From: Olavius algarvensis associated proteobacterium Delta 3
Lineage (GTDB): Bacteria > Desulfobacterota > Desulfobacteria > Desulfobacterales > CAFBRK01
DNA: 64,000 nt
Assembly (NCBI GenBank): GCA_903231505.1
Contig: CAFBRK010000133.1
Coordinates: forward strand, 62,001-126,000
Reading direction: 5' to 3'
Below, piece after piece: positions 1,767-16,284 of this stretch. The translations under genes and the position numbers were made by a program. The notes under the pieces were generated by a model. That model was not told the DNA's origin, made no database searches, and saw only the letters and a list, made by a program, of their open reading frames with translations. Each line of letters opens with the position of its first letter. Position 1 is the first letter of the stretch.

Positions 1767-2702
1767 ATGACAGACATCGTCATTAGTGAATTTATGGATG
1801 AAAAATATATAGAAGAGACTGCCAAGGGGTACGATTGCCATTACGATCCCAACCTTGTCGACAAGCCCGGCGAACTAAAGGTTCTCCTGGAAAACGCCAG
1901 GGCACTGGTGGTCCGCAATCGCACCCAGGTGAATCAGGAGTTGTTAATTGCGGCCCCGAAACTGAAGGTGGTCGGTCGATTGGGGGTGGGCCTTGACAAC
2001 ATAGATCTGACAGCCTGTGATAAACGCGGGGTTGTCGTTTGTCCGGCCACCGGCGCCAACGATGCTTCCGTAGCAGAGTGGGTGATCACCAGTCTGATGA
2101 TCCTGCTTCGGGGCGCCTTTCTTTCAACACCTCAGATGCTGGCCGGAAAATGGCCCCGCGAACAGTCCATGGGAAGTGAGACTGCCGGTAAAACTTTAGG
2201 TCTCATAGGATTCGGCCGGATTGCCCGGGAAACCGCAAGCCGGGCGAAGGCCCTGGGAATGGAAGTCATCGCCTATGATCCATATGTTTCAGCCGATGAC
2301 CCCTGCTGGCAAGATACAAGAAAAATGGATCGCCTGAACGAATTGCTGCCGTTAGCAGATGTGGTGAGTCTGCACGTTCCGCTCAGCGAGGCCACGCATC
2401 ATCTGATCGACTCTGAAGCGATTTCCCAGATGAAACCTGGATCGGTCCTGATCAACGCCGCAAGGGGGGGTACCGTTGACGAGAAAGCCTTGGTGGAAGC
2501 GCTATCGTCCAACCACCTCGGTGGGGCGGCCCTGGACGTATTTGAAACCGAGCCACTGACCGAATCCGCTGCCGCCCGTTTCGCCGGCCTCCCGAATGTA
2601 GTGCTGACCCCGCACATTGCCGGGATCACCGCTGAATCGAACCAGCGCGTCAGCCAAGTTACCATGAAAAATGTATGCCGGGTATTGGAGGGGTCCACAT
2701 GA
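1767..2702 (+). CDS. slcC: D-isomer-specific 2-hydroxyacid dehydrogenase, (S)-sulfolactate dehydrogenase-like
   Basis: NAD-dependent dehydrogenase of 311 residues, the usual length. The Rossmann motif GFGRIA is at 148-153, and the catalytic triad is in place: Arg233 in AARGG, Glu262 in FETEP and His283 in LTPHIAG. SlcC oxidises (S)-sulfolactate to sulfopyruvate. The neighbour, overlapping by an ATGA, belongs to the family of ComC, which reduces sulfopyruvate to (R)-sulfolactate; known SlcC-ComC pairs together invert sulfolactate. That pairing is the main reason for preferring SlcC over phosphoglycerate or other 2-hydroxyacid dehydrogenases. No suyAB sulfo-lyase or sulfolactate transporter is in view, so the substrate is an inference. 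Confidence 0.7.
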   Translation: MTDIVISEFMDEKYIEETAKGYDCHYDPNLVDKPGELKVLLENARALVVRNRTQVNQELLIAAPKLKVVGRLGVGLDNIDLTACDKRGVVVCPATGANDASVAEWVITSLMILLRGAFLSTPQMLAGKWPREQSMGSETAGKTLGLIGFGRIARETASRAKALGMEVIAYDPYVSADDPCWQDTRKMDRLNELLPLADVVSLHVPLSEATHHLIDSEAISQMKPGSVLINAARGGTVDEKALVEALSSNHLGGAALDVFETEPLTESAAARFAGLPNVVLTPHIAGITAESNQRVSQVTMKNVCRVLEGST

Positions 2703-3712
2703 AAGGCAAACAGCTCTCATTAGCGCAACTGCATCGATTGGCCGTAACTGCGTTGAGATTGCATGACACCAGTGAAGAAAACGCATATCGGGTCGCCAGT
2801 GCGTTGGTGGCCGCTGAGGCCGATGGTCTGGGAGGGCACGGCATATCCAGGCTGCCGTCTTATTGTGCCCAATCCGCAACTGGTAAAGTCGATGGGCATG
2901 CCGTGCCTGTGGAAACCCGTGTGGCCGATGCCGCCATTCGGATTGACGCGCAGCACGGCTTCGCTTTCGGGGCGCTGGCAGTGGCCGTGGAAAAACTTTG
3001 CGAGCTGGCACCGAAAACGGGCATCGCCGTTGCGGCGGTCACCCGATCACACCATTGCGGCGCCGCAGGCTATCATGTGGAGGCCTTGGCCCGAAACGGG
3101 TTGGTGGGATTGTTGTTCGCCAACACGCCCAGGGCAATCGCGCCCTGGGGGGGTAAAACCGGCGTATTCGGCACCAATCCCATAGCATTCGCTGCCCCAA
3201 GAAAAGACAACGATCCCTTGGTTATCGATCTATCCCTCAGTAAAGTCGCCAGAGGCAAAATCATGGTTGCCAAACAAAACAGGGAATCCATTCCCGATGG
3301 GTGGGCATTGGACTCCCATGGCCAAGCGACCACCGATCCGGATGCCGCCCTGTCCGGTACCATGGTGCCCATGGGCGAGGCCAAAGGCGCTGCGCTGGTG
3401 CTGATGGTGGAAATCTTTTCGGCAGCCCTGACGGCCGCTCATTTTGGCTTTGAAGCCGGTTCTTTCTTCACCGCTGAAGGGGAACCGCCAGGTGTGGGCC
3501 AGCTCTTGCTGGCATTCGCACCTGATCCCTTATCAAGTCATCAGTTTTATTCCAGAATCGAAGATCTCATCGAAGCGATACTGCGTCAACCGAACACGCG
3601 CTTACCGGGTGATCGCAGGTTGAAGCTGAGGAAACAGGCGCACAACGATGGCGTGTTTTTAACGCATCAACAATATGAACAATTAACGTCGCTTGGCATG
3701 CCATCCAAATAA
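2699..3712 (+). CDS. comC: Malate/L-lactate dehydrogenase family (ComC-like sulfolactate dehydrogenase)
   Basis: A 337-residue Ldh_2-family NAD(P)H oxidoreductase. I chose the ATG at 2699 because it overlaps the stop of the preceding gene as ATGA; an upstream in-frame start adds only eight residues. Family signatures seen are the GGHG stretch at 45-48 and the active-site SHHCGAAGYH at 117-126. ComC enzymes interconvert (R)-sulfolactate and sulfopyruvate; relatives act on malate, lactate or ureidoglycolate. Coupling to the slcC-like gene argues for a sulfolactate-inverting pair. A hairpin terminator follows 30 bp after the stop. Confidence 0.68.
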   Translation: MKGKQLSLAQLHRLAVTALRLHDTSEENAYRVASALVAAEADGLGGHGISRLPSYCAQSATGKVDGHAVPVETRVADAAIRIDAQHGFAFGALAVAVEKLCELAPKTGIAVAAVTRSHHCGAAGYHVEALARNGLVGLLFANTPRAIAPWGGKTGVFGTNPIAFAAPRKDNDPLVIDLSLSKVARGKIMVAKQNRESIPDGWALDSHGQATTDPDAALSGTMVPMGEAKGAALVLMVEIFSAALTAAHFGFEAGSFFTAEGEPPGVGQLLLAFAPDPLSSHQFYSRIEDLIEAILRQPNTRLPGDRRLKLRKQAHNDGVFLTHQQYEQLTSLGMPSK

Positions 3713-4157: not shown

Positions 4158-4525
4158 CTCCGGCAGCAAACATTACTTGTGGAGAATTCGCATGCCGCCC
4201 AGGCGGGAGAACCGTCCTCGGGCAGTGAGCGCCGTTCGTCTACCAGAAAAGGGTCCAGGAGGCGCCGGGCTTGCGACAGTTTTTCAAGGTCGACACCCGA
4301 CAGCTTCCCCCTTGTTTTCAAGTGCTTTGACCCATGCCTCGGTGGCGACATTGCCCGTCGCCTCCGGTGCGAAAGGGCAGCCCCCGAGACCCCCCCACTC
4401 GCGTCGAAGATCCGAATGCCGGAAGACCACGAAGCCAGCACATTCGGCACATCCCTGCCGTATGTGTCGTAAAAATGCATGGCAATCCGATCGGATGGAA
4501 TCTTCGGCAACAGGCTATCGATCAT
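4154..4525 (-). pseudogene. C-terminal fragment of hydroxymethylglutaryl-CoA lyase with two frame changes
   Basis: The reverse strand starts with a stretch reading IPSDRIAMHFYDTYG, matching the HMG-CoA lyase segment with the metal-binding HxH region. The frame then changes at a run of seven C (4390-4396), after which GGLGGCPFAPEATGNVATE follows, the family's catalytic-cysteine and glycine-rich loop. It changes back at a run of five C (4307-4311), after which GVDLEKL follows. Only about the last third of a 300-residue lyase remains; the N-terminal TIM-barrel strands are absent because the nucleotidyltransferase gene occupies that place. The original frame stays open throughout, so a scrambled peptide could still be made. 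Either true decay or homopolymer sequencing error explains the shifts. Confidence 0.75.
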
Positions 4526-5408
4526 TTTTCCACGAATCAAACCTCTCAGAAATTATTTCCAGATCTTTTTCACTATCGATATCGACGGCAGAGGCCCCAA
4601 AATCCATGCAGTATACTCTAAAACGGATGCGCAAGGCATTCGAGATGCAGGCCTCAATTTCCCTGATATCCATCAGCGGCCGGAGTGATTTTGAAATCCG
4701 GTCGACGCCCATGTAATCCCCGATCAAGGCCAGCTGCATTAACAGGGTGAGCCGGAGAATCTTGCCTTTTCCCTTTGTTGAGGGAACAATCGATGCCACC
4801 CACTTGAGATAGTTTTGAAATTTTTTCTGATACCTCAAGTTATAGGTGGTATTCACCAATTTCACATTTTTAACACGGTTGGGCCAGACGATATGCAGAT
4901 TGTTATGTCTGCCAATGAATTGTTTAAAATAAAAATAACTCATCCGAATACCATCGTGGGTTTCTGTGGGATAGAACGCACGTAACGCTTTTTCAGTCTG
5001 AAACCCCATAACATAATCATATTTGAAATAGTCAGCACCCGTAATGAAGGCATCGATTTCAGACGGGGTCGTTAACGGAATATCGGAGGGCAAAATGAGA
5101 AGCGGATAATCCGCATCCCATGAATAAATTGTTTCATAGGACGTTAATATATTGTCGATGACACTTGTCGATTGGGGTAGAAATTCAACAGGTTTTTGAT
5201 AATCGGAAAGGTTTATGCTGGACGTTAACGTGTCCAATGGTCCCACGACAAATATATTCCTTACGTGTTGGGTACGATCCACGGCCTTGATAACATGTTC
5301 CAAGAGGCATTTTCCCTTCAGGGAAAGAAACGCCTTGTTTCTGTGGTGGACAGAAACATAGCCTTCTTTGTCGCCGGCCAAGATTAACGCATCTATAGCA
5401 GTTGTCAT
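4515..5408 (-). CDS. MobA-like nucleotidyltransferase-fold protein
   Basis: A 297-residue protein with the nucleoside-triphosphate transferase fold: N-terminal LILAGDKEG loop followed by NKAFLSLKGKCLLEHVI, and the metal-binding LLILPSDIPL near residue 105. The usual LAGGxxxRMG loop is altered (LAGDKEGYVS), so activity or substrate is uncertain. Relatives transfer NMP to sugars, molybdopterin or phospho-alcohols. The ATG at 5408 is chosen because a 67-bp duplicated leader ends there; the longer frame upstream would translate that repeat. The 3' end overlaps the HMG-CoA lyase remnant by 11 bp. Confidence 0.65.
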   Translation of the reverse strand: MTTAIDALILAGDKEGYVSVHHRNKAFLSLKGKCLLEHVIKAVDRTQHVRNIFVVGPLDTLTSSINLSDYQKPVEFLPQSTSVIDNILTSYETIYSWDADYPLLILPSDIPLTTPSEIDAFITGADYFKYDYVMGFQTEKALRAFYPTETHDGIRMSYFYFKQFIGRHNNLHIVWPNRVKNVKLVNTTYNLRYQKKFQNYLKWVASIVPSTKGKGKILRLTLLMQLALIGDYMGVDRISKSLRPLMDIREIEACISNALRIRFRVYCMDFGASAVDIDSEKDLEIISERFDSWKNDR

Positions 5409-5460
5409 GAATATGTTCCGATAGAAGGTACGGGTCCGGGGTCTGGATGTTTCACTGCAA
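5394..5460. repeat. 67-bp leader repeat, copy 1
   Basis: Matches 14125-14191 at 64 of 67 positions and in the same orientation. On the reverse strand it runs into the start codon and first codons of the nucleotidyltransferase gene (ATGANAACTGCTATA), so in this copy it is the 5' leader and start region. No tandem structure or strong hairpin is seen inside it. Confidence 0.85.
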
Positions 5461-5465
5461 ATGGA

Positions 5466-6147
5466 ACGGACACCGAAAAAGCCCAAATCAAACCATGGTT
5501 TTTTCAACCCGCTGATTTCGGTCTCAAAAAATTCAATACAAGAATTTTCCACGGGCAATTTACATTTAGCATCTTGCAGTTTCTACAAAGTTTGATATAG
5601 ATCTCATTATCCGGTTGAACCTCGCCTGCTCTGATAATCTACCTTCTGGATCTCACGAGGTTCTTATCTCTGAATTTGGTATCCTTCACTATGCCGGCCG
5701 TAGCCTTTTTTTTTAGCGTATTCTTTAGAGTTGTGAATTGAAGCTTTCCTCAAGATTTTGATCTGAATAGCATATTTGTTCCGTAATTCAAGCGCGAGTT
5801 CCAGATATTATAGATCAGTCCATCCGATATTACTTTTTCACATAAAAATCGAGCTGTTTATCTGAATATTGCACCAATTGGAGACTTTCATGGCCAAGGC
5901 ACTTCGAGGTGAATGTGCCGTCCATCCACCGCGATCCGTGAACGGGGCCGGGCAGGGGACTCTCCGTTTGGCCCGAACGGGGGAATCTTTTCAGATCGTT
6001 TAACAGCGAGAACATGCACTATATTGGCCTCCCTTCGATCGGGTTCGAATCCCCTTATCACTGAGAAATTGTTGATTTTTAGCCACTGGCTAAAGAGATA
6101 TCCTTCGATTTTAGTTTGGTTACTGTTTGCTAAAGGAGGACGTTGCG
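5466..6147. other. Intergenic region without recognisable gene
   Basis: About 680 bp between divergently oriented genes (nucleotidyltransferase on the reverse strand, FNT operon on the forward strand). Open frames here are short and do not resemble proteins. It should hold both promoters, but I cannot assign clear -35/-10 or sigma-54 elements. Confidence 0.5.
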
Positions 6148-7029
6148 ATGCCGGCCAATGTCGACGAACTCGTAGTCCGGGTTGCCGATATTTGCACCTA
6201 CAAATGGGACATGATCCGCAACCGGCCTCTGGCCTATCTGATATCCGGCTTTGCCGGGGGGGCCATGGTCGTCTTCGGCGCCACACTGGCCCTGGCAGTC
6301 AGCGCCGGAGTCCCGGAAAAACTGGCGCCGGGGCTTTCCAACCTGCTCATGGGACTCGTGTTCATGTTTTCCCTGGTGATCATTATGGTCAGCGGAATGA
6401 CCCTGGTCACCGCTGACATGTACATCGGGGTCATCGGTATTTTTCACCGCCGCATCAGCTGGGGATGGTTTGTCTGGGGGGTCACCCTCGGGTATGTGGG
6501 CAACTTCCTGGGCAGCATGTTTTTCATGTGGCTGATCAGCAAATCCGCCGCCTTTGCGTATATGCCCTGGCTGGTTCGCGCCCATGCCATCGGCGTGGCC
6601 AAGATGGGTCAGACCGCAGGCCAGATCTTTGCCATGGGAATCGTTTGTACCTGGATGCTCCAGACCGCAGCCATTCTGTATGTGAAAGCCGAAGGCGACA
6701 TTGCTAAAATCGCCATGGCGGCCTACGGGCCGCTGGCCTTTGTCGCCGGAATGACCGAACACTGTATTGCCAACATCGGTTTTCTGGCGCTGCCTCTCTT
6801 TCAGCAGGACGTCTACCTCGACGTTGTCTCCAGGATGCCGGAGGTGACCCCGGTTATTCTCCATTGGGGATTCGGTCAATTCGGCTGGGCCCACAATCAG
6901 CTTTTTACGGTACTCGGGAATCTTGTCGGGGGTATCCTTTTCATCGGCATCGTATTCCAGCTTGTCTCCCATCCCCAACGGGTCATGGAGATTTACCGGG
7001 ACAAAAAAAATCACATGCTGAGGCTCTAA
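6148..7029 (+). CDS. Formate/nitrite transporter (FNT) family channel
   Basis: A 293-residue inner-membrane protein with about six hydrophobic helices and the FNT layout. MTLVTADMYIG corresponds to the first re-entrant loop and TEHCIANIGFL to the second, where other members have TGNM and EHSVANM. FNT channels carry formate, nitrite, lactate or hydrosulfide. The start at 6148 follows AAAGGAGG. It is the first gene of an operon with a molybdopterin oxidoreductase and its iron-sulfur partner, so it probably imports that enzyme's substrate or exports its product; hydrosulfide, nitrite and formate are candidates. The fold is well supported, the ion is unknown. Confidence 0.88.
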   Translation: MPANVDELVVRVADICTYKWDMIRNRPLAYLISGFAGGAMVVFGATLALAVSAGVPEKLAPGLSNLLMGLVFMFSLVIIMVSGMTLVTADMYIGVIGIFHRRISWGWFVWGVTLGYVGNFLGSMFFMWLISKSAAFAYMPWLVRAHAIGVAKMGQTAGQIFAMGIVCTWMLQTAAILYVKAEGDIAKIAMAAYGPLAFVAGMTEHCIANIGFLALPLFQQDVYLDVVSRMPEVTPVILHWGFGQFGWAHNQLFTVLGNLVGGILFIGIVFQLVSHPQRVMEIYRDKKNHMLRL

Positions 7030-7044
7030 GGAGGATTTCATTCC

Positions 7045-7293
7045 ATGGGCTACGCGTATTCACCGTTCAATCCTCTCATCTGGCTTATCTTTATCGGCTT
7101 TTGTATTATCACCTATGTGATCGTAAAGCTGTTTCACCGCAGGTATCCCCACTATCCGGACGCACCGGAAAACGAAGAAAAGATGGAGGGAGTTCAAGAG
7201 GCACAAACCCGGGGCAAGTCCTCTGCCGCAAGGTGGGCGTGTGCCGAGACAGGACAACCTGAAAAACGTCCGCACGTCGGGCGTATAAAGTGA
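7045..7293 (+). CDS. Small single-helix membrane protein
   Basis: An 82-residue protein with one hydrophobic helix at about 9-30 (FNPLIWLIFIGFCIITYVIV), then a hydrophilic tail. Strong AAGGAGG before the ATG, 15 bp after the FNT gene and 16 bp before the molybdopterin enzyme, so it is clearly in the operon. It may anchor or regulate the enzyme or channel; no family recognised. Confidence 0.75.
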   Translation: MGYAYSPFNPLIWLIFIGFCIITYVIVKLFHRRYPHYPDAPENEEKMEGVQEAQTRGKSSAARWACAETGQPEKRPHVGRIK

Positions 7294-7309: not shown

Positions 7310-9451
7310 ATGGAGAATTCGAAATGGATTCCAACGGTTTGCTACCAATGCAAAGCCGAGTGCGCCATTATTGCCCGTGTCGAAGACGGCGTGCTCAAGG
7401 AGATCAGAGGGAATCCCCACGCACGCGGAAAGGCCTGCGTCAAAAGCATGTCCGGTATCTCCCTGGAGTATTCCCCCGACCGGCTCATGCATCCGCTGAA
7501 GCGCGTGGGCGGGCGGGGCGAGGGCCGTTTCGAGCCCATCTCCTGGGAAGAGGCCATGGAGATTATGACCGACAAGCTCCAGGCGCTTCGGGACAGCGGA
7601 GAAGCCCACAAAATGACGGCCAGCTTCTTCCCCCACAGCATCACCGATCCCAAGTGGCGTTTTTTAAATGCCTATGGGGGTTTCCTGAACACGGCGCTGC
7701 CCCACTGCGATTCCGCCAAAATCGTGTCCTGGATCAAAACCACCGGAGGCGTCCCGAATCATCACATCCCCCCGGCCTGGTTTACCGTGCCCAAAGGCGG
7801 CATCATGATCCTGTCCGGGCGACACGCCTTCGGCGGGCTGGAGGATGCCGCCATACCCAGAGATATCCTCGACGCCAAAGAGAGAGGGGCCAAGCTGATC
7901 GTCATCGACCCTATGTTCACTCCCGACGCTGCCAAAGCCGACTGGTGGCTCCCCATCCGGCCGGGCGGAGATACCGCCCTGTTTGCCGGTATGATCCACT
8001 ACATCATTGCCAACGAACTCTATGACAAAGATTTCGTCGCCAACTGGATACGGGAAGGCGACTTCGACAAGCTCACCCAATGGGCTGCCGACAAGACTCC
8101 GGAACAGATGAGCCCGATCTGTGACATTCCGGCCTCCGATATCCGTAAACTGGCGGACGAATGCGCCAAGGCACCGTCTGTGGGCGTGGACAGCTTCAAG
8201 GGCATCATGCTGGGCAATGCAATGGATTTTTCCCACGCCTGGTGCATCTTTTTGGCCATCACCGGAAACATCGACAACCCGGGTGGACAGCCGTTGCCGG
8301 ACCTTGTTCCACTCTCGCCTGTGGAGCCGGTCCCGACCCCGCCGGATCTGCACGAGCTGGGGTGGCACCGCACCGGTCCGGACAGAGACAAGTTCGAGAA
8401 GTTCTCCTTCATTATGGAGCCCACCTGGTATGAGGCCCAGGCCATCCGCAATGGCGATCTCAAAATCCTCATGGTGGCGGAAGCCAACCCCGCCCTCACC
8501 GAGATGGGTGATTTCGGCTGGCAACAGGCGGTTCAGGAAAAAGACGCGGACGGCAACTACAAACTGGACTTGCTGGTCAGCTTCGAGCTCTTCATGTCCG
8601 AGACGGCCAAATACGCCGATCTCGTTCTGCCGGACAGATCCTTTTTCGAACGCTGGGAACTGTTGTATATGCCCTGGTGGTACAACTACGGGCATGGCGT
8701 GGCTCTCCGCCAGCCCGTGGTGGATGCCCCCGGCGAATGCCGGCATGCAAATGATGTGTTCATCGAGCTGGGCAAACGGATTGTCCCGGAATATTTCCAG
8801 TTCAAGGACCTGATCGAATACTACGATATCGAACTGTCCGGGCTCGACCTGTCGGTGGAAAAACTCCAGGAGGCCGGTGGGCACTGGGCGCCCGGCACCA
8901 TGGGCTTCCGTAAATATGAACAAAGGGGAGGCTTCGACACACCGAGCCAAAAGGTTCATCTCTACTGGGAGGACCTTGAGGAAGCCCCCTGGGATCAAGC
9001 CCTTCCGAGGGTGGCACCCCCAGCGGAATATGTGGCCCACGCAGAGGCATTTCCCTTCTATCTTGTCTCCTATCGCACCATATACCATGCCGGTTCCGGG
9101 CAGTGGACGTTCAATAACCCGCAGCTTCGAGACAAGGTGTCCGGATTTCACAGCAATCCGCTTCTAATGAATCCGGCAGCCGCCGGTGAGCTCGGTATTT
9201 CTGAAGGTGACAACGTCACCGTCCAGTCTCCCAGCGGCGATGTCGAGGTGGCTGTGGCGTTGACCGAGCGGATCCGGCCGGACTGCGTTGGTCTGGCCCA
9301 CGGTTTCGGATCCACCGTCGGAGCGGTCGCCACTGCGGCCGGCGGCGTCAGCGACAACCGGCTCATCGCCGACGCCGGAACCACCCTGGACTATCAGGAC
9401 CTGATCGGTGGGGAGGCCCACGTGTCCACGCGCGTGCGCATTGTCACATAA
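7310..9451 (+). CDS. Molybdopterin oxidoreductase, DMSO-reductase family, catalytic subunit
   Basis: A 713-residue enzyme. The N-terminal [4Fe-4S] motif uses Cys11, Cys14, Cys18 and Cys43. The probable molybdenum ligand is Cys133 in LPHCDSAK; the Sec/Cys-His signature of formate dehydrogenases is absent, so I favour a polysulfide/thiosulfate-reductase-like or other reductive role. The C-terminal MopB_CT domain is present (SPSGDVEV and following). No Tat signal precedes the cluster, so it should work in the cytoplasm. It lies 12 bp from an iron-sulfur/flavin subunit that could feed it electrons from NAD(P)H. The substrate cannot be read from sequence. Confidence 0.88.
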   Translation: MENSKWIPTVCYQCKAECAIIARVEDGVLKEIRGNPHARGKACVKSMSGISLEYSPDRLMHPLKRVGGRGEGRFEPISWEEAMEIMTDKLQALRDSGEAHKMTASFFPHSITDPKWRFLNAYGGFLNTALPHCDSAKIVSWIKTTGGVPNHHIPPAWFTVPKGGIMILSGRHAFGGLEDAAIPRDILDAKERGAKLIVIDPMFTPDAAKADWWLPIRPGGDTALFAGMIHYIIANELYDKDFVANWIREGDFDKLTQWAADKTPEQMSPICDIPASDIRKLADECAKAPSVGVDSFKGIMLGNAMDFSHAWCIFLAITGNIDNPGGQPLPDLVPLSPVEPVPTPPDLHELGWHRTGPDRDKFEKFSFIMEPTWYEAQAIRNGDLKILMVAEANPALTEMGDFGWQQAVQEKDADGNYKLDLLVSFELFMSETAKYADLVLPDRSFFERWELLYMPWWYNYGHGVALRQPVVDAPGECRHANDVFIELGKRIVPEYFQFKDLIEYYDIELSGLDLSVEKLQEAGGHWAPGTMGFRKYEQRGGFDTPSQKVHLYWEDLEEAPWDQALPRVAPPAEYVAHAEAFPFYLVSYRTIYHAGSGQWTFNNPQLRDKVSGFHSNPLLMNPAAAGELGISEGDNVTVQSPSGDVEVAVALTERIRPDCVGLAHGFGSTVGAVATAAGGVSDNRLIADAGTTLDYQDLIGGEAHVSTRVRIVT

Positions 9452-9463
9452 GGAGGTGAGACC

Positions 9464-11455
9464 ATGAAACAGATAGGCATGATGATTGACCTCAACAGAT
9501 GCATCGGCTGTCGAACGTGTGTCGTGGCCTGCCGAAATTACCATGAGCTCTTCGACCACCAGACCGCCGACCCGGATAATATCCCGTATTACCTTCGCGT
9601 GGAATCGCGAGTCCAGGGGGCCTTCCCCGACCTGACCATGGATACCTGGATCCGTCCCTGCCAGCACTGCCCGGAACCGGGATGTCTGGACGCTTGCCCG
9701 GAGGGCGCCATCGCCAAGGACCTGGAGACAGGTGTCGTGCAGATCGATGAGGAGAAGTGCGCCGGCTGCCAGGCCGAGACCGGGTCCTACCCCGAGGAAA
9801 AGGCAAAATCGGCGCCCTGCACGGCCACCTGCCCGGCACACCTCAACGTCCAAGGATATGTCAACATGGCCGCTTTGGGTCAATTCGACGAGGCCCTCAA
9901 GCTCATCAAAAAGGAAAATCCATTTCCCGCGGTCTGCGGCCGGGTCTGCCACCACCCTTGCGAAGAGGCCTGCTCGCGGGGCGAGAAGGATACGCCCGTT
10001 GCCATCAACGCCATCAAGCGCTTCATTGCCGATCTGGATTTGGATCCGGAGACGCGTCATGTGCCCGCGATCAAGGCGGCAAAGGATCAACGGGTGGCTG
10101 TTGTGGGTGCAGGACCGGCCGGTTTGACATGTGCCTATTTTCTGGCCCGGGAAGGCTATCCGGTGACGGTGTTCGAGCAGCTCCCGGTGGCCGGCGGCAT
10201 GATGGCCGTCGGCATTCCGGCCTACCGCCTCCCCAATGACATTCTCGAGGCCGAGATCCGGGTTATCACGGATATGGGCGTCGACATCCGAACCGATGTG
10301 GCGCTGGGTGACGACGTCACCATCGACACTCTCAGGGAAGATGGCTACGACGCCCTGTTCATCGCCTCCGGCCTACAATTGACCGGCAGGCTCGATGTTG
10401 TCGGAGAGAACCTGCCCGGCGTGCACAGCAGCTTGGATATCCTCAAAGACGCGGCCCTGGGGAACCCGGTCGAGCTGGGGGAGAAGGTCATCGTCATCGG
10501 CGGCGGCAACGCGGCCGTAGACGCCGCCCTGACGGTCAAACGACTTGGGGCAAAGAACGTCTCTCTGGTCTGCCTGGAGCAGCGTGGCGAGATGCCGGCA
10601 TGGGAGCACGAAATCAACGATGCTTTGGAAGAGAATATCGAGATCATCAACGGTCTGGGCCCGATGCGGTTTGTGGAAGAAGATGGCCGGCTCGCCGGCG
10701 TTGAATTTCAGCGCTGCACCGCGGTGTTTGACGAAGACGGCGGGTTCGCTCCCGCATACGACGACTGTGAGTTGACGAGCATGGAGGCGGATTCGGCCAT
10801 TGTTTCCATCAGTCTGGTCGGCGAGCGGGAATTCGCAGAAGATGGCGGCATTGCCCTGACTTCCGCCGGCAGACTCTGGGCCGACCCCCTGACGCTGCAG
10901 ACCCGCCTGGATTGGGTCTTTGCCGGTGGGGATTCCGTGCACGGTTCCACGTCCGTGATCGAAGCCATCGCCAGCGGGAAGCAGGCCGCAGCGTCCATCG
11001 ACCGATACGTGCGCGGCCTGGACCTGAAGGCGGCGGAGGAAAGGGATTGGACCATGGCCGGAAAGGTCTTCAGAGAGCAATACGACACATCAGAGCGGGT
11101 TGCGATACCCAGGCTCGCCCCGGAGGAACGAGAGGGTAATTTCAACGAACTGGAGCAGACCCTGACCCAAGACATGGTGATGGCCGAAGCCAAGCGGTGT
11201 CTCAACTGCGGCTGCGCCTGCATGCAGAGTTGCCCATTCGGAGTACTCCAGTTCGACGGAAAGGCAGGGATATCGCACAAGTGCAACTTCTGCTACGACC
11301 TGATCACCACCGGCCAAAAACCGGTCTGCGCAGAGGTGTGCTTGACCGATGCGCTCACCGTGGGCGAATCGGAACTTCTCAAGCAAGAGGCCGAAAGCAG
11401 GGGACTGGCCATCATCGAAGAGCTGAGCCGGGCTTCACATCTATACGTGAAATAG
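9464..11455 (+). CDS. Four-cluster ferredoxin subunit with an inserted GltD-like NAD(P)H:FAD oxidoreductase
   Basis: A 663-residue fusion. Residues 1-102 are the start of a DmsB/PhsB-type electron-transfer subunit, with clusters CIGCRTC and CQHCPEPGC and the first pair of a third (Cys99, Cys102). Instead of continuing, a full GltD-like module follows (about 110-575): its own cysteines (CTATCP, CGRVCHHPCEEAC), FAD-binding VVGAGPAG at 213-220 and a second nucleotide site VIGGGNAAVD. The ferredoxin then resumes at 579 with CLNCGCACMQSCPFGVLQF and the last cluster CNFC near 607-626. It would pass electrons from NAD(P)H through FAD and Fe-S to the molybdenum subunit. RBS GGAGGTG precedes the ATG; a terminator follows. 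Confidence 0.9.
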   Translation: MKQIGMMIDLNRCIGCRTCVVACRNYHELFDHQTADPDNIPYYLRVESRVQGAFPDLTMDTWIRPCQHCPEPGCLDACPEGAIAKDLETGVVQIDEEKCAGCQAETGSYPEEKAKSAPCTATCPAHLNVQGYVNMAALGQFDEALKLIKKENPFPAVCGRVCHHPCEEACSRGEKDTPVAINAIKRFIADLDLDPETRHVPAIKAAKDQRVAVVGAGPAGLTCAYFLAREGYPVTVFEQLPVAGGMMAVGIPAYRLPNDILEAEIRVITDMGVDIRTDVALGDDVTIDTLREDGYDALFIASGLQLTGRLDVVGENLPGVHSSLDILKDAALGNPVELGEKVIVIGGGNAAVDAALTVKRLGAKNVSLVCLEQRGEMPAWEHEINDALEENIEIINGLGPMRFVEEDGRLAGVEFQRCTAVFDEDGGFAPAYDDCELTSMEADSAIVSISLVGEREFAEDGGIALTSAGRLWADPLTLQTRLDWVFAGGDSVHGSTSVIEAIASGKQAAASIDRYVRGLDLKAAEERDWTMAGKVFREQYDTSERVAIPRLAPEEREGNFNELEQTLTQDMVMAEAKRCLNCGCACMQSCPFGVLQFDGKAGISHKCNFCYDLITTGQKPVCAEVCLTDALTVGESELLKQEAESRGLAIIEELSRASHLYVK

Positions 11456-14298: not shown

Positions 14299-16284
14299 AT
14301 GACAACTGAAAACCAAATGGACGCAGAAGCGTCTTTTGATAATACCGACCTCGAAGAACTCAGCGAACGTGTGAAACGGGTCCTCGACATTGGTGATCGA
14401 AAATATGGGATTCCGCCGAAGACGTACCCCAAGTGTTTTGTCGGAAGCGAGGCGGTCGACAAACTGGTAGAGGAAGGCATCGCCAGCCACGAAGAGGACG
14501 CCGTGCGCATTGGAAACATGATGCTCAACGCGGGTGTAATTCATCACGTACTCGATGCACACGCATTCAAGAACGAGCATCTGTTTTACCGTTTCCTGTC
14601 GGACGAGGATCACGGCACGGCGGCACGCAAACCCGACGGCAGCACGGTCAGCTGGGCTGATTTCATGACACCGCTGACGTCCCCGGGTGACCGAAGCCTG
14701 TCGCTCCAGCCGAAAATTCCGGGACGCGATACGAACCTGGCCTCGTTTTCTCAGGTCGATCTCGAAGCATGCGGTGTTTCGCCGATGGATGAGCACAACA
14801 CCAAGTTTATGGATCTCCTGCACCCCAAAGGGTGGGTGGATCCTGAGCCCAAACCGTCATACAACCTGGTGGTGATCGGTGCCGGCGCCGGCGGATTGGT
14901 TTCTGCAGCGGGCGCGGCGGGTGTCGGGGCCCGTGTGGCACTTATCGAGTCCCACTTGCTGGGCGGTGACTGCCTGACGGTGGGTTGTGTGCCGTCCAAA
15001 CTGTTGTTGCGGTGCGCCAAGGCGGCGGCGGTCCGCAACGCAGCCGAGTTCGGCGTTCACATAAACGGCGAGGTTACTGTCGACTTCGGCTTTGTCATGG
15101 AGCGGATGCGCCGCTTGCGGGCGAGCATCGCACCTGTCGACTCTGCCGAACGCTACAGCGAGAAACTCGGGGTGGATGTCTTTATCGGCAAGGGCAAATT
15201 TACCGGCGAGAATACGATCGAGGTCAACGGAAAGACGCTCACGTTCGCCAAGGCGGTGGTGGCAACCGGCGGCACGGCGGCCGTCCCCGACATCCCGGGC
15301 CTCAAACAGGCGCCGTATCTCACCAATGCATCGGTATTCAACCTGACAGAATTGCCTGCGCGCCTGGGTGTCATTGGCGCAGGACCCATCGGGCTCGAAC
15401 TGGCCCAGGCATTCCAGCGCTTGGGATCACAGGTGACGGTTTTTTCCCGCAGCGACAAGATTCTGCCCAAGGAGGATCCGGATGCGGCACAGATCGTTCA
15501 ACACGCGCTGCGCCGGGACGGTGTCACCTTCGCCTATCATGTCAACTACAAGGGGGTTGAAACCCGGGGTGGAAAACCTCCGATCACCGTGTTTGTGAAA
15601 GACGGCAATGGAGAACGGTCACTGGAATTTGACGCGCTGCTGGTCGCAGCCGGTCGCAAGCCGACCGTCAGAGGCCTCGGTTTGGAAGACGCCGGCATCG
15701 AATACGATGAGCGCAGGGGGGTCAAGGTCAACGATCGCATGCAAACCACCAATCCGGATGTGTATGCTGTGGGTGATGTGGCGAGCAAATACCAGTTCAC
15801 ACACATGTCGGATTTTGGGGCGCGGCTGGTGATCCGCAACGCGCTGTTTTTTGGTCGCGACAAATTCTCGAATCTGATTATTCCCTGGGCGACCTACACA
15901 GAACCGGAAGTGGCACATGTGGGGCTTTATGAAAAAGATCTGGAAGAACAACACATCGAATTTGTGACCTTCACGCGGGTATTTGCCGATGTCGACCGCG
16001 GCATTGTCGACGGGGAGACGGAAGGGTTCGTGAAGATTCACGTTAAAAAAGGAACGGACCAAATCCTGGGGGCGACGATCGTCGGCAGCCACGCCGGCGA
16101 TATGATCAGCGAGATCACCGTGGCGATGCACGGCGGGATGGGGCTGGGAAAGCTGGCAAATGTCATTCACCCGTATCCAACGGTGGCCGAGGCGATTCGC
16201 CAATGCGGAGACGCCTACAACCGGGGGCGTCTCACACCCACCGTCAAAGGCATATTCAACCGTCTCATGGCGTTAAAACGCTGA
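14299..16284 (+). CDS. DEP-domain fusion to a mercuric-reductase-like pyridine nucleotide-disulfide oxidoreductase
   Basis: A 661-residue protein. Residues about 22-102 match a DEP domain: KTYPKCFVGSEAVDKLVE, then NAGVIHHV and a final HLFYRFL. After a linker, residues 188-660 form a complete FAD/NAD(P)-dependent disulfide reductase: FAD motif VIGAGAGGL, redox pair Cys225/Cys230 in GGDCLTVGC, NAD motif VIGAGPIGLE, YAVGDVA, and the dimer-domain HPYPTVAEA. The mercuric-reductase terminal CC pair is missing, so Hg reduction is unlikely. DEP domains usually bind membranes or signalling proteins, so the fusion may target a reductase to the membrane. Start set by GAAGGAGGG. Confidence 0.88.
   Translation: MTTENQMDAEASFDNTDLEELSERVKRVLDIGDRKYGIPPKTYPKCFVGSEAVDKLVEEGIASHEEDAVRIGNMMLNAGVIHHVLDAHAFKNEHLFYRFLSDEDHGTAARKPDGSTVSWADFMTPLTSPGDRSLSLQPKIPGRDTNLASFSQVDLEACGVSPMDEHNTKFMDLLHPKGWVDPEPKPSYNLVVIGAGAGGLVSAAGAAGVGARVALIESHLLGGDCLTVGCVPSKLLLRCAKAAAVRNAAEFGVHINGEVTVDFGFVMERMRRLRASIAPVDSAERYSEKLGVDVFIGKGKFTGENTIEVNGKTLTFAKAVVATGGTAAVPDIPGLKQAPYLTNASVFNLTELPARLGVIGAGPIGLELAQAFQRLGSQVTVFSRSDKILPKEDPDAAQIVQHALRRDGVTFAYHVNYKGVETRGGKPPITVFVKDGNGERSLEFDALLVAAGRKPTVRGLGLEDAGIEYDERRGVKVNDRMQTTNPDVYAVGDVASKYQFTHMSDFGARLVIRNALFFGRDKFSNLIIPWATYTEPEVAHVGLYEKDLEEQHIEFVTFTRVFADVDRGIVDGETEGFVKIHVKKGTDQILGATIVGSHAGDMISEITVAMHGGMGLGKLANVIHPYPTVAEAIRQCGDAYNRGRLTPTVKGIFNRLMALKR

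Follow-up and report, generated by a model that had tools for sequence, protein, structure and literature searches.

A predicted circularly permuted GltD/NfnB cassette nested inside a cluster motif of a four-cluster ferredoxin encoded beside a molybdoenzyme gene in Olavius algarvensis associated proteobacterium Delta 3

GltD/NfnB-type flavoprotein modules have been described within several larger proteins. Their insertion into the ferredoxin domain of HdrA is already published (PMC9012536, PMC12054007), and StnC, from the Stn complex of Sporomusa ovata, carries GltD between NuoG-like parts, with a FAD described as non-bifurcating and a lysine (Lys170) at the proximal cluster (PMC10482914). AegA of E. 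coli is a ferredoxin-then-GltD fusion in one chain, tied to formate dehydrogenase biology (PMC8097209), and DsrL is an NAD(P)H flavoprotein of the GltD type that has additional clusters at its C terminus; the latter account also supplies the NfnB cluster ligands (Cys39, 42, 47 and 100 for the distal cluster; Cys51, 90, 96 and Glu117 for the proximal cluster) and the rule that links a YRR motif to NADP (PMC7596348). In the literature searched, mostly open access and exclusive of preprints, we found no description of a GltD insertion in the ferredoxin subunit of a molybdoenzyme, and none of a GltD unit that was called circularly permuted. Here we analyse a stretch of 64,000 nucleotides (the window) in which one open frame (9464..11455, + strand) encodes a 663-residue protein combining a four-cluster ferredoxin with such an insert. 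We consider it quite probable that this gene specifies the beta (ferredoxin) subunit of a molybdenum enzyme that is soluble and cytoplasmic, with a permuted GltD/NfnB cassette placed in frame between ligands 2 and 3 of cluster motif III.

The nested gene is the last in a tight run of four on the + strand. The presumed operon opens with a formate/nitrite transporter family (FNT) channel (6127..7029), followed 15 nt later by a gene for a small protein of 82 residues with no family match (7045..7293), 16 nt later by a 713-residue molybdopterin oxidoreductase (7310..9451; PF00384, PF01568 and PF04879, an N-terminal [4Fe-4S] motif, and Cys-Asp at the Mo-ligand position) and, 12 nt further on, by the nested gene; a ribosome-binding site of the AAGGAGG type stands ahead of each of the last three. 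No twin-arginine signal was seen in the sequence of the 713-residue subunit. The wider surroundings include a MobA-like NTP transferase (PF12804) near the operon on the opposite strand (4515-5558, −), and a PRK06370-type FAD oxidoreductase (14299-16284, +; 739 bits, cut-off 620) that is longer by about 155 residues at its N terminus. A phosphoglycerate-dehydrogenase-like protein and an Ldh_2-family dehydrogenase are encoded by overlapping genes (1767-2702 and 2675-3712, +), a pair that resembles the (S)- and (R)-sulfolactate dehydrogenases.

The ferredoxin shares with DmsB, PsrB and FdnH-type beta subunits its sixteen cluster cysteines in four motifs and its operon with a molybdopterin subunit. 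The N-terminal part (residues 1–103, 9464..9772, +) holds motif I (C13, C16, C19 and C23), motif II (C66, C69, C74 and C78) and, as CAGC (99–102, 9758..9769, +) directly ahead of the insert, the first half of motif III (C99 and C102). The second half (C586 and C590) and motif IV (C607, C610, C622 and C626) lie in the C-terminal part (585–663, 11216..11452, +), whose C-terminal tail is common to uninterrupted orthologs. Unlike those beta subunits, the chain is interrupted inside motif III, between the second and third cysteines (CAGC, then ACMQSCP; in context, EEKCAGCQ and then ACMQSCPFGVLQF), so that it is not a single uninterrupted ferredoxin (residues 103 and 585 are separated by 481 residues), and no membrane anchor gene was recognised beside it. 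An earlier sequence-only reading had placed the break after CAGC and the restart, with CNFC, after the inserted module. Both placements are borne out: EEKCAGC gives way to a short linker and the GltD module, and DmsB-type sequence restarts at residue 585 (ACMQSCPFGVLQF), with Pfam Fer4_11 at 570–635 and CNFC at 607–610. Against TIGR02951 the nested protein scores 99, with a cut-off of 214. An alignment of 11 nested proteins keeps 24 cysteines throughout, C626 of L038 falling at a contig end where it cannot be assessed; the first half of motif III reads CRGEKPC in the nested protein of L119.

Between the two ferredoxin parts stand a linker of 13 residues (104–116) and the cassette itself (117–584; together 9773..11215, +). 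That reading's complete FAD/NAD(P) module of about 470 residues is indeed present, as a GltD/NfnB-type flavoprotein with Fer4_20 (115–192) and Pyr_redox_2 (210–505), a FAD motif at 215–220, an NAD(P) Rossmann motif (GGGNAA) at 346–351 and a fold match to NfnA/StnC over 111–594. Its order is not the canonical one. In NfnB the stretch R..NFxE...EAxRCLxC stands ahead of PCxxxCP, whereas in the insert it comes last; phmmer aligns residues 117–518 with NfnB 45–461 and, separately, 548–583 with NfnB 8–43. The C-terminal stretch scores 65 against the N terminus of a canonical homolog from the same genome (L128), a value reached by none of 2000 shuffles. Judged by these alignments, the insert is a circularly permuted NfnB with its RCLxC helix at the C terminus.

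The cluster ligands can be followed through this rearrangement. RCLNC (578–582, 11195..11209, +) aligns with Cys39 and Cys42, which are N-terminal in NfnB, and is predicted to close the GltD distal cluster: C579, C582, C119 and C170 map onto NfnB Cys39, 42, 47 and 100, and C123, C162, C166 and K185 onto Cys51, 90, 96 and Glu117 (NfnB numbering from PMC7596348). Seven cysteines and K185, all within 9773..11215 (+), thus occupy places homologous to the ligands of two [4Fe-4S] clusters. K185 (10016..10018, +) takes the fourth ligand position of the FAD-proximal cluster, where NfnB has Glu117 and StnC has Lys170 (PMC10482914). This position varies more widely, being Lys in the window, Glu in L038 and the L017-clan rows shown, and His in many HdrA-type inserts. 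C370, L371 and E372 (10571..10579, +) replace the NADP-binding YRR of NfnB (rule from PMC7596348). In two HdrC-like GltD proteins (L130 and L131) the chain ends soon after RCLQC, with no downstream ferredoxin, which argues that RCLxC serves the GltD part. Because all GltD cluster ligands lie inside the insert, the sixteen ferredoxin cysteines are left intact. The counter-case named in the sequence-only reading, that the C-terminal cysteines are solely GltD's, holds for the CLNC pair (579 and 582) and fails for C586, C590, C607, C610, C622 and C626, which are the ferredoxin's.

Relatives with an empty site provide the most direct comparison. The ferredoxin halves, joined at 103/585, were searched against 294 genomes of the window's phylum, and three (L168, L169 and L170) encode an uninterrupted ferredoxin of 182–186 residues that aligns without a gap over 182 of 182 residues (55, 53 and 52% identity). 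These matches have E values of 1e-68 or better, the next best, the window itself aside, lying near 1e-35. Their ferredoxin genes neighbour orthologs of the 713-residue Mo subunit (72, 60 and 61% over 711 residues), so the site is empty in relatives and filled in the window. The position of C102 is Ser, Ser and Ala in the three, hence orthology does not establish that CAGC fully ligates cluster III. Several uninterrupted ferredoxins from the window's own genome (for example, a 181-residue frame on C216) match both halves in adjacent stretches of one frame, with the break near 102–104 and 584–586. Together with the ligand bookkeeping (which uses PMC7596348), these comparisons support a nested insertion and not an end-to-end fusion, as had been proposed.

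We obtained two AlphaFold models of the 663-residue chain. The first (45 alignment rows) has a pLDDT of 78 and a pTM of 0.75, with much of the ferredoxin part below pLDDT 50; the second, from an alignment with more ferredoxin rows (A4), reaches 82 and 0.77, with ferredoxin block means of about 41–90. In A4, uninterrupted ferredoxins were added as separate half rows, 3 of 21 remaining unsplit because the motif pattern missed them, and one split row (L095) being unused; alignments A2 and A3, with parts of the ferredoxin C half misplaced, were left out of folding. The models agree on the GltD part. Superimposing them on the permuted NfnA of NfnABC (9bov_A) gives 470 residues at 1.7 Å (Z 45.9) for model 1 and 467 residues at 1.8 Å (Z 51.0) for model 2; including StnC (8oh5_C), the matches span 467–470 residues at 1.7–2.1 Å and run through residue 584–595, whereas canonical Pyrococcus furiosus NfnB chains match only over 112/113–518. 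Structure prediction, which the earlier reading had proposed as a check, therefore backs the GltD part and leaves the junction at low confidence in both models: residues 103–114 have pLDDT below 50 in each, and 584–609 are below 50 in model 1 with block means of 50–60 in model 2. The fold comparisons list GltD-like and other flavoprotein chains only, and the missing ferredoxin chains carry no information.

Among described proteins, StnC and NfnA of NfnABC (PDB codes 8oh5, 9bov and 9n5u) are the best structural matches, sharing a permuted GltD, a C-terminal RCLECGC (RCMSCGC in 9n5u) and Lys at the proximal cluster position. Their cassette, however, sits in a NuoG/FdhF-like chain, which in Stn is partnered by the bifurcating StnAB, whereas the window host is a four-cluster ferredoxin with a separate molybdoenzyme; the window chain ends at residue 663 with ferredoxin in place of the NuoG/FdhF-like C-terminal domain of the Stn/NfnABC large subunit, and its Mo subunit is a separate gene. 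HdrA type III has the same cassette inserted into a ferredoxin domain, and the top identities of the window insert (52–55%) are to cassettes in such long frames. HdrA-type frames show a complete CxxCxxCxxxC motif after the insert, which places theirs between motifs and the window's inside one, and the window protein differs further in having neither the HdrA thioredoxin-reductase-like FAD domain nor the HdrA ferredoxin, and in having a molybdoenzyme as partner. Cassette matches with E 1e-100 or better occur in 141 of 297 genomes, many in HdrA-type frames of about 1400–1500 residues; an archaeal survey reported nine type III HdrA only (PMC12054007).

NfnB, GltD and the N-terminal domain of DPD share the fold, the FAD and NAD(P) sites and two clusters with homologous ligands, but there the RCLxC helix is N-terminal, and the YRR for NADP is missing from the window protein. 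In DsrL the extra ferredoxin is at the C terminus, the partner is a sulfite reductase and nothing is nested in a ferredoxin. AegA and YgfT have their ferredoxin ahead of GltD, end to end, in contrast to the nested window protein, which scores 269 and 225 bits against their NCBIfam models (cut-offs 1003 and 1154). End-to-end fusions of another kind occur in L007:907-3003 (C87 of the window's own genome), L097:5557-7677 and L100:5545-7677, where the GltD cassette follows an N-terminal domain with GANCGGCG..GC. We take this domain to be RnfB-like, and such fusions might provide an NAD(P)H link to an Rnf-type complex.

The nested architecture recurs beyond the window, as the search proposed by the earlier reading confirmed. 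Full-length nested proteins were found in 10 of 297 genomes by cassette search, and frames of 638–679 residues crossing the N-terminal junction in at least 14 of 395 by a junction probe; the probe represents a single clan and no more than 11 candidates were scored per genome, so this count is a lower bound, as are all counts from scans covering the window's own phylum and one single pattern scan. A named example is JAHECH010000146.1, from Deltaproteobacteria bacterium isolate Ww165 (L038). Separate trees were built for the ferredoxin part (with an uninterrupted set of 30 distinct ORFs at E 1e-12, at least 130 aligned residues and at most 360 residues in length) and for the insert, sub-sampled to 60 rows, to 35 with long branches left out and to 27 with L119 also left out; the 60-row tree carried a warning that long branches meet at the window row. 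The ferredoxin tree places the window protein with its three uninterrupted orthologs (support 98/95, and 100/98 in a later tree), L119 among other uninterrupted ferredoxins, and L038 and L203 with the uninterrupted L124, L163 and L166. In the tree of the insert, one HdrA-type clade, carrying YRR, contains the L017 clan and L203, the window (with CLE) and L038 lie in another clade, and L119 pairs with a solo protein. L203 combines an L038-type ferredoxin and molybdoenzyme with an L017-type cassette (support 100/100).

Both trees reject one common origin for the nested form. Forcing all nested forms into one clade gave AU p 1.8e-6 for the ferredoxin (about 1.3e-68 with L203 added) and 5.3e-80 for the insert (2.9e-87 without L119 but with L203); at the ferredoxin level, grouping L038, L203 and the L017 clan under one origin was not rejected (p 0.26–0.31). 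Since the ferredoxin and insert trees disagree and the nested forms make no single clade, the module, as judged from these trees, either arrived at this same site on at least three occasions or moved between hosts. Linker length is equal in the window, L038, L203 and the L017 clan, which could mean common descent of cassette with linker or a constraint on length. One contig of L124 encodes both an uninterrupted (5632-6174) and a nested (8414-10345) ferredoxin, and each has a molybdoenzyme of its own next to it. In L122, L125 and L126, the neighbours of the L017-clan nested genes include AMP-binding (phenylacetate-CoA ligase-like), class-III aminotransferase and IclR-like genes, neighbourhoods that suggest an aromatic-acid pathway and a substrate other than that of the window enzyme.

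The same residues can be parsed differently. A two-cluster N-terminal ferredoxin might be followed in tandem by a GltD flavoprotein that carries a C-terminal ferredoxin of its own, as in PRK12771-like proteins, and indeed NCBIfam PRK12771 matches 107–634 in one stretch, at 452 bits, below its cut-off of 516. CLNC and CACMQSCP would then form the third motif, CLNCGCACMQSCP having nearly ferredoxin-like spacing, and CAGC would belong to the GltD entrance cluster, which would sit well with the lack of conservation of C102 in the empty-site orthologs and with the low-confidence junction of both models. We regard this arrangement as unlikely, and its detailed assignment of the cysteines as equally so, given that the empty-site orthologs align gap-free across the junction and that RCLxC, mapping to NfnB Cys39/42, is retained in proteins where no ferredoxin follows. 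RCxxC also occurs at the expected C-terminal distance in 102 of 107 cassette candidates and just before PCxxxCP in none of those 102, a count conditioned on a filter that dropped five: L079 (no start motif), L116 (too long) and one frame each of L042, L045 and L066, which end in RCLRLC, RCLRIC and RCLRIC. An assembly or frame artefact fusing two genes is far less probable still; the genome is a draft of 350 contigs, but the gene sits on one of 348,870 bases, G+C is similar in its three parts (0.60, 0.62 and 0.57), and the same architecture is found in the 14 or more genomes noted above.

As to function, similarity of the cassette to NfnB is high (35–38% over about 400 residues), and a bifurcating site of the NfnB kind would share the electrons of NAD(P)H out between the molybdoenzyme and another acceptor. 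We think this improbable: we recognised no gene for an NfnA-like partner within the operon, and K185 corresponds to Lys170 of StnC, for which a non-bifurcating FAD is described (PMC10482914), a correspondence that favours plain electron transfer over bifurcation. For the nested insertion with plain transfer, the proposed path would run from NADH to FAD, to the proximal cluster (C123, C162, C166 and K185), to the distal cluster (C579, C582, C119 and C170), through the four ferredoxin clusters to the [4Fe-4S] cluster of the 713-residue subunit and on to Mo, so that the six clusters of the nested protein would carry electrons from FAD to a cytoplasmic molybdoenzyme. With the RCLxC helix at its C terminus, the cassette would have both ends on the loop that carries ligands of its exit cluster, which would explain its insertion into a ferredoxin cluster loop and make the exit cluster a neighbour of ferredoxin cluster III (C99, C102 and C586 plus C78); C582 and C586 are four residues apart. 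Direct access of the molybdoenzyme to NAD(P)H can be soundly inferred from this anatomy and the operon. Replacement of YRR by C370-L371-E372 predicts NAD(H) rather than NADP(H) as cofactor of the window protein, and the L017 clan, which keeps YRR, should use NADP(H).

The nearest relatives of the 713-residue subunit in the PDB are thiosulfate/polysulfide reductases. Formate dehydrogenases have Sec or Cys followed by His at the metal site. The FNT neighbour had suggested a formate dehydrogenase as partner, an assignment set aside because Asp comes directly after the Cys presumed to ligate the metal in all four window-type Mo subunits. The FNT channel here, and HPP-family proteins in the operons of two empty-site relatives, suggest that the substrate is perhaps a small anion.

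As far as the literature searched extends, we found in print neither the molybdoenzyme four-cluster ferredoxin as host, the split inside one motif and the empty-site orthologs, nor the repeated use of the same site and permutation as its reason. Since both of its ends would lie on the exit-cluster loop, the cassette would be insertable into the cluster loop of an unrelated ferredoxin. We lean towards viewing the permuted GltD as an evolutionary plug-in redox cassette, which could be dropped into such a loop to give a continuous wire, entered the gap between ligands 2 and 3 of motif III in at least three molybdoenzyme lineages, and was swapped between hosts in NAD-type (CLE) and NADP-type (YRR) versions. 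The locus and its relatives show a metal-cluster motif before and after a domain was inserted into it, and because orthologs of both kinds, filled and empty, are available, the gain of NAD(P)H coupling can be tested directly. Permutation at a cluster loop would offer a simple structural reason why one flavoprotein module recurs in many anaerobic electron-transfer enzymes, and may serve as a design rule, taken from nature, for coupling ferredoxin-dependent enzymes to NAD(P)H; the window protein and its nested relatives are predicted to form a family of soluble molybdoenzymes linked to NAD(P)H.
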